From Nanoarchaeota archaeon (GTDB taxonomy: Archaea > EX4484-52 > LFW-46): DNA of 10,171 nucleotides. A model generated the notes under the pieces. That model had not been told where the DNA came from, made no database searches, and was given only the letters and a program-made list of their open reading frames with translations. The stretch covers positions 1 to 10,171 of the forward strand of contig JAHILE010000013.1 of the NCBI GenBank assembly GCA_018897155.1, written 5' to 3'. A program made the translations under genes and the position numbers. Positions 1,770 to 8,103 of the stretch are shown here, piece after piece. How positions within the stretch are numbered: position 1 is the stretch's first letter; every line of letters begins with the position of its first letter.

Positions 1770-4244
1770 ATGATTCAAAAGAAAAATAAGGAAATTAAAC
1801 AGGATAAACTGATTCTTTGGTTCAGCGAAATACGAAATACCGACGTCGCTGTTGTTGGCGGAAAAAACGCTTCTCTTGGTGAAATGTACTCAAACCTGAC
1901 AAAAAAAGGCGTTAATATCCCTAACGGATTTGCAGTTACTGCTCAGGCTTACAAATTATTCCTTAAAGAAAGCGGCATCGAAAAAAGGATGCGCGAAATT
2001 CTCTCGGACCTTGATGTCGGAAATCTAAAAAATCTCCAAGCGCGCGGAAAAAAGGTGCGAAAAACAATACTTGCAGCAGAATTTCCGGCAGAACTGAAAA
2101 AAGAAATAGCTGCATCATACAAAACGCTCTGTAAAGAATACGGACCCAACACTGATGTTGCAGTGCGCTCATCAGCTACAGCAGAAGACCTTCCGGACGC
2201 AAGCTTTGCAGGCCAGCAGGAAACTTACCTCAATATCCATGGCGTGGATGCTCTTCTTATCGCAGCAAAAAAATGCTTCTCATCGCTTTTCACAGACCGC
2301 GCGATATCCTACCGCCATACAAAAAAATTCGGCCAGTTCGCAGTATATCTTTCAATAGGCGTGCAGAAAATGGTGCGCTCTGACCTTGCATGCTCGGGCG
2401 TAATGTTTACAATAGATACTGAAAGCGGATTCCGCGATGTGGCACTTGTCACAGGCTCATACGGCCTTGGAGAAAACATTGTGCAGGGGCGAGTGGATCC
2501 CGACCAGTTCTATGTGCACAAGCCAACGCTAAGACTTGGCAAAAAGCCGATAATTTCGCGCGTGATTGGAAGCAAGGATGTGCGCATGATATATTCAAAC
2601 AACAAGTCAAAGCCCACAGTAAATGTAAAAACATCTTTGCAAGATGCCGGAAAATTCTGCATAACAAACTCGGAAGTCCTGAATCTTGCGAAATGGGGCT
2701 GTATAATCGAGGACCACTACAAAAAGCCTATGGATATAGAATGGGCAAAAGACGGAAGAACCGGGAAGATCTTCATTGTTCAGGCAAGGCCGGAAACAGT
2801 TCAATCACGGCGCGATGTAAATGTTCTTGAGAAGTATTCGCTCCTCCAGAAAGGAAAGATTCTTATCACCGGTTTAAGCGTAGGCGAAAAAATCGGCGCT
2901 GGAAAAGCAGGTGTGATTAAGGATGTCAAGAACATCAACCAGTTCAAAAAAGGCGATGTCCTTGTGACTGAAATGACAGACCCTGACTGGGAGCCAATAA
3001 TGAGAATGTCTTCTGCAATTGTAACTGAAAAAGGCGGAAGGACATGCCATGCAGCAATAATTTCAAGAGAGCTTGGAATACCGTGCGTTGTCGGAACAGG
3101 CAACTGCACAAAAGTTCTTAAAAGCGGCAAAATGATAACAGTCTCATGCGCAGAAGGCGAAGCCGGGTATGTGTATGAAGGCGCGCTTAAATTCAATGTG
3201 AAGAAAACCAACTTGAAAAATCTGCCTGAGCTGAAAACAAAAATTATGCTAAATGTCGGAAATCCCGAGCAGGCATTTGACGATTCGTTCATCCCAAACG
3301 ACGGAGTGGGGCTTGCGCGCGAAGAATTCATAATCATGTCGTACATAAAGGTGCATCCGCTTGCGCTTCTTAATTACAGATCATCTCGTTCCACTCGAAG
3401 CTTTTTGACCAAAGGTCAAAAATCCCTTGACGCAAAACTGAAAAAGGAAATAGATGACCTTACAAAAGGATATACTGACAAGGCGAAGTTCTTCGTGGAT
3501 AAACTTGCAGAAGGCATTGGAACAATAGGTGCGGCATTCTATCCCAAAGACGTCATTGTTAGATTATCTGATTTCAAGACAAACGAATATGCAAATCTTG
3601 TCGGTGGCAGCGCGTATGAGCCAAAGGAAGAGAATCCGATGATAGGCTGGCGCGGCGCATCAAGATATTATGATGACAAGTACAAGGCTGCGTTTGCGCT
3701 TGAATGCAAGGCGCTGAAGAAGGTGCGCGATGAATTCGGGCTGAATAATGTCAAAATAATGATTCCATTCTGCAGGACTCCTGAGGAAGGTAAAAAAGTC
3801 ATTGCGGAAATGGGAAAAAACGGCCTTAAGCAGCATGAAAACGGGCTTGAAATATATGTCATGTGCGAAATACCGTCAAATGTTATACTTGCAGACAAGT
3901 TCTCTGAAATTTTTGACGGATTTTCTATCGGAAGCAATGATTTAACTCAGCTGACTTTAGGAATTGACCGCGATTCGGGAATTGTAACGCATATCGCAAA
4001 CGAGAAAAACGAGGCTGTAAAAAGAATGATATGCGCGGTGATAAAAGTTGCCAAGCAATATAAAAGAAAAATCGGCATTTGCGGGCAGGCGCCAAGCGAT
4101 TTTCCGGATTTCGCGGAATTCTTGATTGAACAGGGCATCGACTCAATATCACTGAATCCTGACAGCGTAATAAAGACGCGCATGATGCTTGGGGAAATGC
4201 AGAAGACACGGAATGGCGCGCTGGTTAAGAAGGTTTGCAGTTGA
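1770..4244 (+). CDS. ppsA: Phosphoenolpyruvate synthase (pyruvate, water dikinase)
   Basis: Converts pyruvate, ATP and water to PEP, AMP and phosphate, the entry step of gluconeogenesis in the cytoplasm. All three domains are present in 824 residues (E. coli PpsA is 792). The N-terminal ATP-binding domain has GGKNASLGEM (30-39), VRSSATAEDLPDASFAGQQE (132-151) and the VQARPET end (337-343). The swivelling phosphohistidine domain has GGRTCHAAIISRELGIP (422-438), with His427 as the phosphorylated residue. The C-terminal PEP/pyruvate barrel has NPMIGWRGASRY (622-633), CEIPSN (699-704), GSNDLTQ (721-727) and GICGQAPSD (769-777), with Cys771 as the catalytic cysteine. Residues 538-551 are an insertion coded by a palindromic repeat element, in the helical stretch between the HPLALL segment and the barrel. 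The domain order and catalytic residues are intact, so the enzyme is probably active. Confidence 0.96.
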   Translation: MIQKKNKEIKQDKLILWFSEIRNTDVAVVGGKNASLGEMYSNLTKKGVNIPNGFAVTAQAYKLFLKESGIEKRMREILSDLDVGNLKNLQARGKKVRKTILAAEFPAELKKEIAASYKTLCKEYGPNTDVAVRSSATAEDLPDASFAGQQETYLNIHGVDALLIAAKKCFSSLFTDRAISYRHTKKFGQFAVYLSIGVQKMVRSDLACSGVMFTIDTESGFRDVALVTGSYGLGENIVQGRVDPDQFYVHKPTLRLGKKPIISRVIGSKDVRMIYSNNKSKPTVNVKTSLQDAGKFCITNSEVLNLAKWGCIIEDHYKKPMDIEWAKDGRTGKIFIVQARPETVQSRRDVNVLEKYSLLQKGKILITGLSVGEKIGAGKAGVIKDVKNINQFKKGDVLVTEMTDPDWEPIMRMSSAIVTEKGGRTCHAAIISRELGIPCVVGTGNCTKVLKSGKMITVSCAEGEAGYVYEGALKFNVKKTNLKNLPELKTKIMLNVGNPEQAFDDSFIPNDGVGLAREEFIIMSYIKVHPLALLNYRSSRSTRSFLTKGQKSLDAKLKKEIDDLTKGYTDKAKFFVDKLAEGIGTIGAAFYPKDVIVRLSDFKTNEYANLVGGSAYEPKEENPMIGWRGASRYYDDKYKAAFALECKALKKVRDEFGLNNVKIMIPFCRTPEEGKKVIAEMGKNGLKQHENGLEIYVMCEIPSNVILADKFSEIFDGFSIGSNDLTQLTLGIDRDSGIVTHIANEKNEAVKRMICAVIKVAKQYKRKIGICGQAPSDFPDFAEFLIEQGIDSISLNPDSVIKTRMMLGEMQKTRNGALVKKVCS
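3381..3425 (+). repeat. In-frame palindromic repeat element, copy A, inside ppsA
   Basis: The element opens with TCATCTCGTTCC (3381-3392), continues with ACTCGAAGC (3393-3401), and ends in a perfect hairpin: TTTTTGACC (3402-3410), loop AAA, GGTCAAAAA (3414-3422). The same 12-base opening, the same ACTCGAAGC segment and an equivalent 9-bp hairpin occur on the minus strand at 7576-7632 inside the methyltransferase gene. It codes for SSRSTRSFLTKGQK, residues 538-551 of PpsA. Removing these 14 codons (42 nt, 3381-3422) gives the spacing I recall for E. coli PpsA between the HPxALL and KG(Y/F) landmarks. No target-site duplication is visible. Confidence 0.75.
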
Positions 4245-6734: not shown

Positions 6735-7400
6735 TTATTTCGTTTCCGCATCATCAACCGGAAACGAATTTAATCCGTCTGCAGTAAGATATATTATTAG
6801 CGCGTCCTCAACAGCGGTTTTCAAATCCCTACTTGAGATATAAACCTCGTTGGTTTCTGCATCCTGCTCAATGTTCAATGACTGGACTATTTTATATATC
6901 TCCCGGTATGCAGGATCCACAGATTCTTTATGAAGTGCCTTAACAATCATGGCTTTTTGAAAAAGGCGATGCGGCTCTCCTGTTTGTGTATCAATCATTC
7001 TATACGAATCAAAAACCATATAGCCATTGCCGGTTTTTTCGTAATAAAAATGCATATCATGAAATCCCTTGGCCACGAGCTTTGACCGCAGCTCGACAAA
7101 CAAAACAGCAGCGCTCTTTAAATCCTCCCTGACTTTCTCGATAATCGGAATGACTATCGTTCCCATAATCGCATTATACACAACAGGATTTAAGACAAGG
7201 CTCTGCCGTATTTTGTCAGAAAGGCATTTTATGCGGATTAGATGGCCTTCTTCTGTAAAAGAAATAAGATTTGGAGCTTCAAAATGCCCTGGGTCCGGCA
7301 CAAATTTATATGTACCTTGAGCGAAAAATTCAGGAAAGGTGAGGCGCACACCATATCTTTCAAAGCCTTCGGTCGACCTGTTAATCTCGCTCATTTCCAT
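6735..7400 (-). CDS. Hypothetical protein, soluble alpha/beta
   Basis: The product is 222 residues from the chosen start MEMSEINRSTEGFERYGVRL and shows no signal peptide or membrane helix. It has alternating charged and beta-prone stretches: VRLTFPEFFAQGTYKFVPDP, HLIRIKCLSDKIRQSLVLNP, then an amphipathic helix VIPIIEKVREDLKSAAVLFV, HFYYEKTGNGYMVFDSYRMI, and near the end a helix DLKTAVEDALIIYLTADGL. I do not recognise the family. A longer frame from ATG 7463 adds 21 residues but overlaps the methyltransferase gene by 35 nt. The shorter start is preferred because TATA-like elements lie between the two, one overlapping the methyltransferase stop codon. The ATG at 7394 is a further option. It follows the methyltransferase on the same strand, so a functional link is possible but unproven. 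Confidence 0.75.
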   Translation of the reverse strand: MEMSEINRSTEGFERYGVRLTFPEFFAQGTYKFVPDPGHFEAPNLISFTEEGHLIRIKCLSDKIRQSLVLNPVVYNAIMGTIVIPIIEKVREDLKSAAVLFVELRSKLVAKGFHDMHFYYEKTGNGYMVFDSYRMIDTQTGEPHRLFQKAMIVKALHKESVDPAYREIYKIVQSLNIEQDAETNEVYISSRDLKTAVEDALIIYLTADGLNSFPVDDAETK

Positions 7401-7428
7401 GCACCAGTTATATATTTGTAGCTTATGA

Positions 7429-8103
7429 TTATATATTGTTTTTAAGCCGCGTATTTGTTTCAATAATCGCCCAGTAATTATTTCCTTCCCGCCACGCTTT
7501 ATTTACTTTCAATTCAGCTTTTTTCGCAAGCATTTCCAGCTCAGCCTTGCGAAAGAGATGATAAAACCGCGGATGTTTTGAGGGTTTGGAGCCCTCAAAA
7601 GCTTCGAGTGAAGCGTTAGCGGAACGAGATGATTCATTATTCCAGCCCAGCTGGATATCCGGGCTTTTTCTTTTTTTGAATTTTTCCTGCTCAAACGCCC
7701 AGACAGAAACAAAGAGTTCTGATTTTGAAGCGCGCGCAATTTCTTTCAATGCCAAAATCCGCTCTTTTTCTGCCTTAAAATGATGAACTACTGCAATGCA
7801 TATCGAATTATCGAATGCGTTTTCTTTAAATGGAAGCGCAAGCACGTTTCCAAGAACCCAAGGCACGCCTGTCTTTTTCTTTGCGATTTTCAACATATTT
7901 TTTGAAATATCGATACCAACTGCATCTAATCCGCGCTTTTTTGCCTCGATGATGTGCCTGCCATTTCCGCAGCCGATATCAAGAACAAAACTCTGCTTCG
8001 GCAGCTTTTCAAGAAAATCAGAGACCTCTTTCCAAGGAACTTGGCGCGTTTTCGAAAACTCTTCCGCAAATTTGTCGTAGTCCGCTTTCACTGCATTGGG
8101 CAT
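7429..8103 (-). CDS. Trm9/ALKBH8-like SAM-dependent methyltransferase
   Basis: A 224-residue class I methyltransferase. The N-terminal signature YDKFAEEFSKTRQVPW (9-24) matches the eukaryotic Trm9/ALKBH8 family, which methylates the carboxymethyl side chain of wobble uridine in tRNA. SAM-binding motif I is VLDIGCGNG (40-48), the acidic residue after strand 2 is in GIDIS (63-67), and ICIAVVHHF (101-109) is the motif IV region. RFYHLFRKAELEML (179-192) is the second family landmark. Residues 158-176 between these regions are coded by a palindromic repeat element, copy B, and lie in a loop of variable length in the family. The tRNA substrate is inferred from homology; archaea may use it for a different uridine modification. 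The gene is divergent from MBF1 with only 33 nt between starts, and its TATA box lies 30 nt before the ATG. Confidence 0.88.
   Translation of the reverse strand: MPNAVKADYDKFAEEFSKTRQVPWKEVSDFLEKLPKQSFVLDIGCGNGRHIIEAKKRGLDAVGIDISKNMLKIAKKKTGVPWVLGNVLALPFKENAFDNSICIAVVHHFKAEKERILALKEIARASKSELFVSVWAFEQEKFKKRKSPDIQLGWNNESSRSANASLEAFEGSKPSKHPRFYHLFRKAELEMLAKKAELKVNKAWREGNNYWAIIETNTRLKNNI
7576..7632 (-). repeat. In-frame palindromic repeat element, copy B, inside the methyltransferase gene
   Basis: Read on the minus strand, TCATCTCGTTCC (7632-7621) is followed by an 11-nt segment absent from copy A, then ACTCGAAGC, and then a hairpin with TTTTGAGGG and CCCTCAAAA arms (plus-strand 7592-7600 and 7576-7584) around a 7-nt loop. 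It codes for SSRSANASLEAFEGSKPSK, residues 158-176. After the first four residues the reading frame through the shared DNA differs from copy A, because the extra 11 nt shift it, yet both stay open. The total is 57 nt, again a multiple of three. Confidence 0.75.

Follow-up and report, generated by a model that had tools for sequence, protein, structure and literature searches.

In Rickettsia (Rickettsia palindromic elements, RPEs) and in Wolbachia, unrelated conserved genes are known to contain palindromic repeats that keep the reading frame, and copies also lie between genes; within proteins they usually occupy non-structured segments, and they have no known dedicated transposase (PMC2229807, PMC10969869). 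RPEs measure 105-146 bp, carry terminal inverted repeats (PMC2229807) and encode one conserved peptide (PMC10969869). Coding palindromic repeats are also on record for an archaeon, Methanocaldococcus jannaschii (Suyama et al. 2005, FEBS Lett 579:5281, as cited in PMC2229807 and PMC2996958). How the protein-coding palindromes known from Rickettsia, Wolbachia and this one methanogen move is unsolved. Haloarchaea harbor palindrome-associated elements derived from IS200/IS605 (PATEs), which are several hundred bp long, have hairpin ends shared with known insertion sequences and insert without target duplication. Other small hairpin repeats include the REP, BIME and REPIN elements associated with RAYT transposases (PMC3116915, PMC3733652), the small dispersed Nostoc repeats (mentioned in PMC3116915) and the mitochondrial hairpin elements RHE and DHE (PMC2800124). 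Among open-licence papers, we found no report on palindromic repeats or MITEs in DPANN archaea.

The nanoarchaeal repeats that we describe here resemble RPEs and Wolbachia palindromes in being palindromic, in lying in frame in unrelated conserved genes as well as between genes, usually in non-structured segments, and in having no known dedicated transposase. The analogy with RPEs drawn in the original prediction stands as far as the way of working is concerned. It does not extend to membership, because our units depart from RPEs in size, ends, reading frame and sequence: they are only 40-66 bp long, consist of two hairpins, have TC..AAAA ends instead of inverted repeats, are read in all frames and in either orientation, occur chained and nested, and encode no conserved peptide. 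The expectation that an archaeal counterpart would be new was also only partly right, since the M. jannaschii repeats, likewise palindromic and located within archaeal protein genes, precede it; they come from a different archaeal lineage, and the likeness is drawn from their description in the citing papers. Elements of this kind were therefore already known from Rickettsia, Wolbachia and M. jannaschii, and what appears to be new is the sequence family, its two-hairpin architecture and its precise insertion without duplication. Compared with PATEs, our units are far shorter. With the Nostoc repeats and RHE/DHE they have in common being tiny spreading hairpins that double by tandem insertion and occasionally enter genes without frameshift, although the sequences are unrelated and those repeats belong to another domain or to an organelle.

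Two-hairpin units in the window and in the genome

The window (the whole stretch of 10,171 nucleotides that was analysed) lies on contig 13 of the source genome, hereafter G000 (1.43 Mb, 62 contigs), and contains two copies of the repeat in two protein genes (Table 1). A Cdc6/Orc1-like ORF and the overall gene content mark G000 as archaeal, and its PpsA neighbours suggest a DPANN-like affinity. As originally proposed, both copies are present with TCATCTCGTTCC and ACTCGAAGC in common, contain a 9-bp hairpin with T-run and A-run arms, encode SSRS at their start (in-frame residues RSSRS and ESSRS) and lie in frame within conserved genes. Only the end of copy A, placed at 3425, had to be moved, as it was 3 bases too far. 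Unit A spans positions 3381-3422 (+), that is, 42 bp or 14 codons, and comprises an imperfect stem-loop module, Y (TCATCTCGTTCCACTCGAAGC), and a hairpin module, X (TTTTTGACC-AAA-GGTCAAAAA); unit B spans 7632-7576 (-), 57 bp or 19 codons, with Y TCATCTCGTTCCGCTAACGCTTCACTCGAAGC and X TTTTGAGGG-CTCCAAA-CCCTCAAAA. At the inserts, the predicted proteins read RSSRSTRSFLTK in PpsA and NASLEAFEGSKPSK in the methyltransferase. Rfam returned 0 matches within the window. A 242-aa open frame without Pfam match (6735-7463, -) is located between dehydrogenase and methyltransferase genes.

Table 1. Positions of the host genes and element modules in the window, and of a second in-frame repeat in the sister species G001.
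Feature	Position	Strand	Evidence
Host gene ppsA (phosphoenolpyruvate synthase)	1770..4244	+	PF01326, PF00391, PF02896; homologue alignment; structure model
Copy A, Y module, short form, imperfect stem-loop TCATCTCG..CTCGAAGC, in ppsA	3381..3401	+	model R2, 44.5 bits
Copy A, X module, perfect 9-bp hairpin TTTTTGACC/GGTCAAAAA	3402..3422	+	exact 42-bp insert versus sister G001
Host gene, class I SAM methyltransferase (Trm9-like)	7432..8103	-	PF08241; alignments with relatives
Copy B, Y module, long form, in Trm9-like gene	7601..7632	-	model R2, 52 bits
Copy B, X module, 9-bp hairpin TTTTGAGGG/CCCTCAAAA	7576..7600	-	exact 57-bp insert versus sister G001
Second in-frame repeat	G001 C60:17332-19195, C31:3879-5091, C31:69060, C11:25026, C8:18307		

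We consider it highly probable that the two window copies are insertions of a non-autonomous two-hairpin mobile element with the structure 5'-TC[Y]GC-TTTT[X]AAAA-3'. Three aspects of its anatomy go beyond the original prediction: X is a separate module, Y exists in several sub-types, and units are chained via common A4/T4 ends, as in the three consecutive units at G000 C59:2170-2318 or in the array at G000 C25:37100-37260. Besides the window type (TCATCTCG..CTCGAAGC), Y occurs as TCAT-perfect stem-AAGC, as TCCTTTCGC..GCTCAAGGC and as TCCGTTCGC..GCTCTCGGC, all types having in common the frame 5'-AAAATC...GCTTTT-3', in which A4 pairs with T4, followed by a T.C mismatch and a C-G pair. Y stems carry compensatory changes: in the alignment of the long sub-type (A1), both sides are changed in 7 of 13 pairs and all of 500 shuffles fall short of the observed value for pairing as well as for covariation, and the covariation score of the window type (alignment A2) is above all shuffles. 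X, a perfect hairpin of the form TTTT-stem-loop-stem-AAAA whose stems vary between copies yet remain self-complementary, directly follows Y on its 3' side in 144 of 165 Y modules; in reversed sequence used as control, the same loose test found an X-like hairpin at 164 of 1143 GCTTTT sites.

The element is dispersed and repeated, entering genes, intergenic DNA and its own copies and so building chains and nests. Letter-level reading covered 630 kb of G000 and, with some stretches masked, 1.14 Mb of a sister species of the same genus, G001, and a covariance-model search took in the whole of G000, including the remaining half or so (~0.8 Mb); several counts are based on regular expressions written for the modules. 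With a 66-base query from copy B, blastn retrieved 43 places in G000 at E<=10 and 20 at E<=0.01. Pieces of the family are the commonest 13-mers in the 630 kb of G000 (AAAAGCTTCGAGT, 16 times; AAATCATCTCGTT, 11 times), and regular-expression forms of the module match 48 times across both genomes and 0 times in reversed sequence, a recurrence far above chance. Across 34 genomes of the order (an identical set at phylum level), a covariance model of the window type (R2, built from 35 copies) gave 69 matches in G000, 60 in G001, 3-14 per genome in family f7 and up to 7 in f4, with none or single weak matches in the remaining genomes, and a model of the longer sub-type (R1) gave 48 in G000, 74 in G001 and almost none beyond the genus. 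No strong R2 match was found in 18 named genomes reached via PpsA homologues (best 23 bits), most of them DPANN archaea, together with two labelled Paceibacterota, a Hodarchaeote and a Euryarchaeote. The dispersed family foreseen from only two copies is thus real, and it extends to the sister species and, in smaller numbers, to other families of the phylum. In one of these other families, four R2 matches form a tandem array with 60-bp spacing (G004 C8:3045-3253).

Precise insertion without target duplication

Whether the extra residues occur in PpsA and Trm9 homologues had been singled out as decisive in the original prediction, and they do not: the element is missing in every one of the 23 archaeal and bacterial PpsA homologues compared, all from other organisms, and the 19 residues of copy B are missing in all aligned Trm9-like relatives (about 15; alignment gap 157-175). 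In G001 both sites are empty to the base, ppsA being shorter by 42 bp and the methyltransferase gene by 57 bp, with matching flanking residues. The length of PpsA does vary near the site, two of the 23 homologues having a shorter extra stretch of unrelated sequence, as variable loops of ordinary proteins that are alike by chance might do; but the presence of one DNA module in unrelated genes, in intergenic regions and in six frames, together with the base-exact empty sites, refutes this reading and leaves it a negligible probability. The sister Trm9-like gene carries an in-frame unit of its own (TCATGCC..GGCAAGC-TTTTGGGAACTTTGAGTCCCAAAA) at a different site (G001 C5 about 975-1020): one gene was hit independently in the two species.

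The comparison of 842 G000/G001 orthologue pairs (133 kaa aligned) yielded 95 insertions of at least 8 residues, a large share of which belong to the Y/X family. For 15 of the 16 in-gene inserts examined, insert and unit TC..AAAA have the same length in the alignment and the host minus the unit aligns in register with its sister, so no target site was duplicated (some junctions were initially chosen by eye and later checked by script); single units measured in this way span 42-66 bp. At AAAA targets a 4-bp duplication would look the same as none, and here the decision comes from nested insertions: a 56-bp unit lies within TTTTGGGACAAAGGG^TTCCCAAAA (G001 C71) and a 43-bp unit within GAGGAATTAAAGG^AGTCCTC (G001 C13), both interrupted hairpins being found uninterrupted elsewhere in G001, exact over 10+10 nt. 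These cases assign the A4 to the unit and speak against our initial reading of AAAA as a target duplication. Additional exact empty and filled site pairs (10+10 nt) were found in G000 (C32, C25) and G001 (C11, C21, C28), and multi-module blocks of about 97-180 bp common to different loci start with AAAATC and end with GAAAA.

These junctions bear on two other possible origins of the units. Classical MITEs moved by a DDE transposase would likewise be small, dispersed and non-autonomous with AT-rich ends; however, our units lack terminal inverted repeats (TC.. versus ..AAAA) and produced no target-site duplication, whether in genes or nested, the C71 and C13 sites contradicting such a mechanism directly, which makes it, in our estimation, extremely improbable. 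Alternatively, the hairpins might have arisen locally, through slippage of replication or switching of templates at A/T runs, without having moved, since self-complementary X stems that differ from copy to copy can be made by local template switching, a process that may still explain the variation of X after insertion. As an origin of the units it is improbable, because the Y consensus is common to unrelated loci, the multi-module blocks recur at more than one locus and end at the A4 junction, and whole units are inserted base-exact into intact copies of other elements. Transposition of a discrete two-hairpin unit remains our preferred reading.

The units lie beside A/G-rich sequence. Immediately 5' of TC, 14 of 16 in-gene cases have an A, and A occupies 47 of 64 positions in the left flank from -4 to -1 (p about 6e-13); this flank is AAAA in about 6 of 16 cases and varies in the others (including GAAA, AGGA, TGAA and CAGA), and two nested or intergenic cases have CGTT or TCTA. 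To judge from these flanking sequences, insertion favours A/G-rich sites. At G033/G032 loci, one unit lies within the hairpin CCCCGCCTT..AAGGCGGGG and another 3' of an apparent tRNA 3' end.

Reading of the units in host proteins and genes

Within genes, the element is read from both strands and in each of the phases 0, 1 and 2, so that there is no single encoded peptide. In conserved genes the host frame is nevertheless mostly kept open, in any frame and either orientation: unit length is a multiple of 3 in 14 of 19 copies in conserved genes versus 51 of 125 elsewhere (p 0.007), and a test that was not limited to in-frame cases, and so is free of blastp bias, found 9 of 12 in frame and open and 3 of 12 disrupted. 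Shuffled Y modules are at least as open as the real ones, which gives no sign of selection for stop-free elements, so that selection after insertion is the best explanation of the frame bias. In an AlphaFold2 model of PpsA (mean pLDDT 84.6), the insert (residues 539-551) has a pLDDT below 50 and is predicted to be a disordered loop between two helices. The encoded peptides are probably near-neutral passengers; copies in frame in flexible surface loops would survive selection, and the others would be lost or kept between genes. Removal of the inserts from RNA, as archaeal introns, or their bypass in translation would leave the proteins without these residues, and the hairpin that each insert may form would suit it, but unit lengths that are mostly multiples of 3 and open would then be unneeded, and the PpsA insert lies in a loop able to tolerate it. 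We regard this possibility as very improbable.

A long X type (TTTTTAACCCAAAGAATATGGAGAATGGTTAAAAATG), found in G000 and G001, ends at the start codon of an open reading frame of at least 60 aa in 34 of 75 copies (for example, at G001 C61:3291 (-) and C21:20118 (+)), its last A being nearly always part of the ATG and its loop often containing GGAG. From its sequence, this type seems to bring a ribosome-binding site, and some copies at gene starts may have been adopted as leaders that provide it. The core of a second in-frame repeat (GCGATTGAGCGACGATGAGGAGCGAAAGCGC, peptide LNPRLSDDEERKR), which is read in differing frames, occurs 15 times in G001 and once in the G000 sample (Table 1).

Candidate mechanism of movement and its implications

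The absence of duplication and of terminal inverted repeats, the hairpin feet at both ends and the one-sided A/G-rich flank match the traces that would be left by a single-strand transposase (HUH, Y1). Our units agree with IS200/IS605-derived elements in lacking target duplication and in having a fixed orientation relative to the target, the A/G-rich flank of in-gene copies being almost always the one next to TC. Our best guess, plausible though just short of probable, is that the unit is moved by an HUH/Y1 (IS200/IS605-type) transposase acting in trans: the unit would travel as folded single-stranded DNA, be cut at the hairpin feet and be joined by the same enzyme 3' of a purine-rich target. 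We found Y1 transposase genes in both species: G000 has three (C40:67127, C35:26310 and C46:15909) and G001 has one. On visual inspection, which took in flanks of up to about 1.5 kb, these four loci show no Y/X modules at their ends, which are hairpins of IS200/IS605 type of their own, and no autonomous insertion sequence with the same ends as the unit was found among them, letter-level reading having covered 630 kb of G000. The RAYT/IS605 genes found were therefore rejected as cognate transposases.

A REP/REPIN-type system, in which hairpin doublets are moved by a dedicated RAYT tyrosine transposase, follows a similar logic, with short imperfect palindromes, conserved mismatches, doublets (REPINs are REP doublets, PMC3116915), chains, some copies in genes and apparently no target duplication, and Y1 transposases do occur in both genomes. 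We nonetheless consider it unlikely: the tag GTAG at the foot of REP palindromes is absent from the unit consensus, the foot being AAATC..GCTTTT in both consensus alignments; the unit is a doublet of unlike hairpins, one imperfect and one perfect, instead of an inverted pair of one REP; and none of the four Y1 loci holds a RAYT gene flanked by the Y/X family.

More tentatively than the involvement of an HUH/Y1 enzyme, we propose that the element may represent a new minimal class of transposable elements from an archaeal phylum of which little is known, namely a 40-66-bp unit of two unlike hairpins with freely variable stems that keep their pairing, which would be recognised by structure and not by sequence and be inserted from single strands without duplication; conserved proteins would tolerate it in whatever frame or orientation, and genes would have taken it up more than once as a leader that supplies a ribosome-binding site. 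Because the unit ends are fixed to the base and filled and empty sites are available both between sister species and within one genome, the mode of insertion is now testable, with substrate, joint and target preference all specified. For the biology of these archaea, such units give small genomes a way of extending essential enzymes by short peptides and of providing genes with new leaders, and they serve as a warning that protein inserts of this type in archaea are recent DNA insertions and not conserved functional loops.
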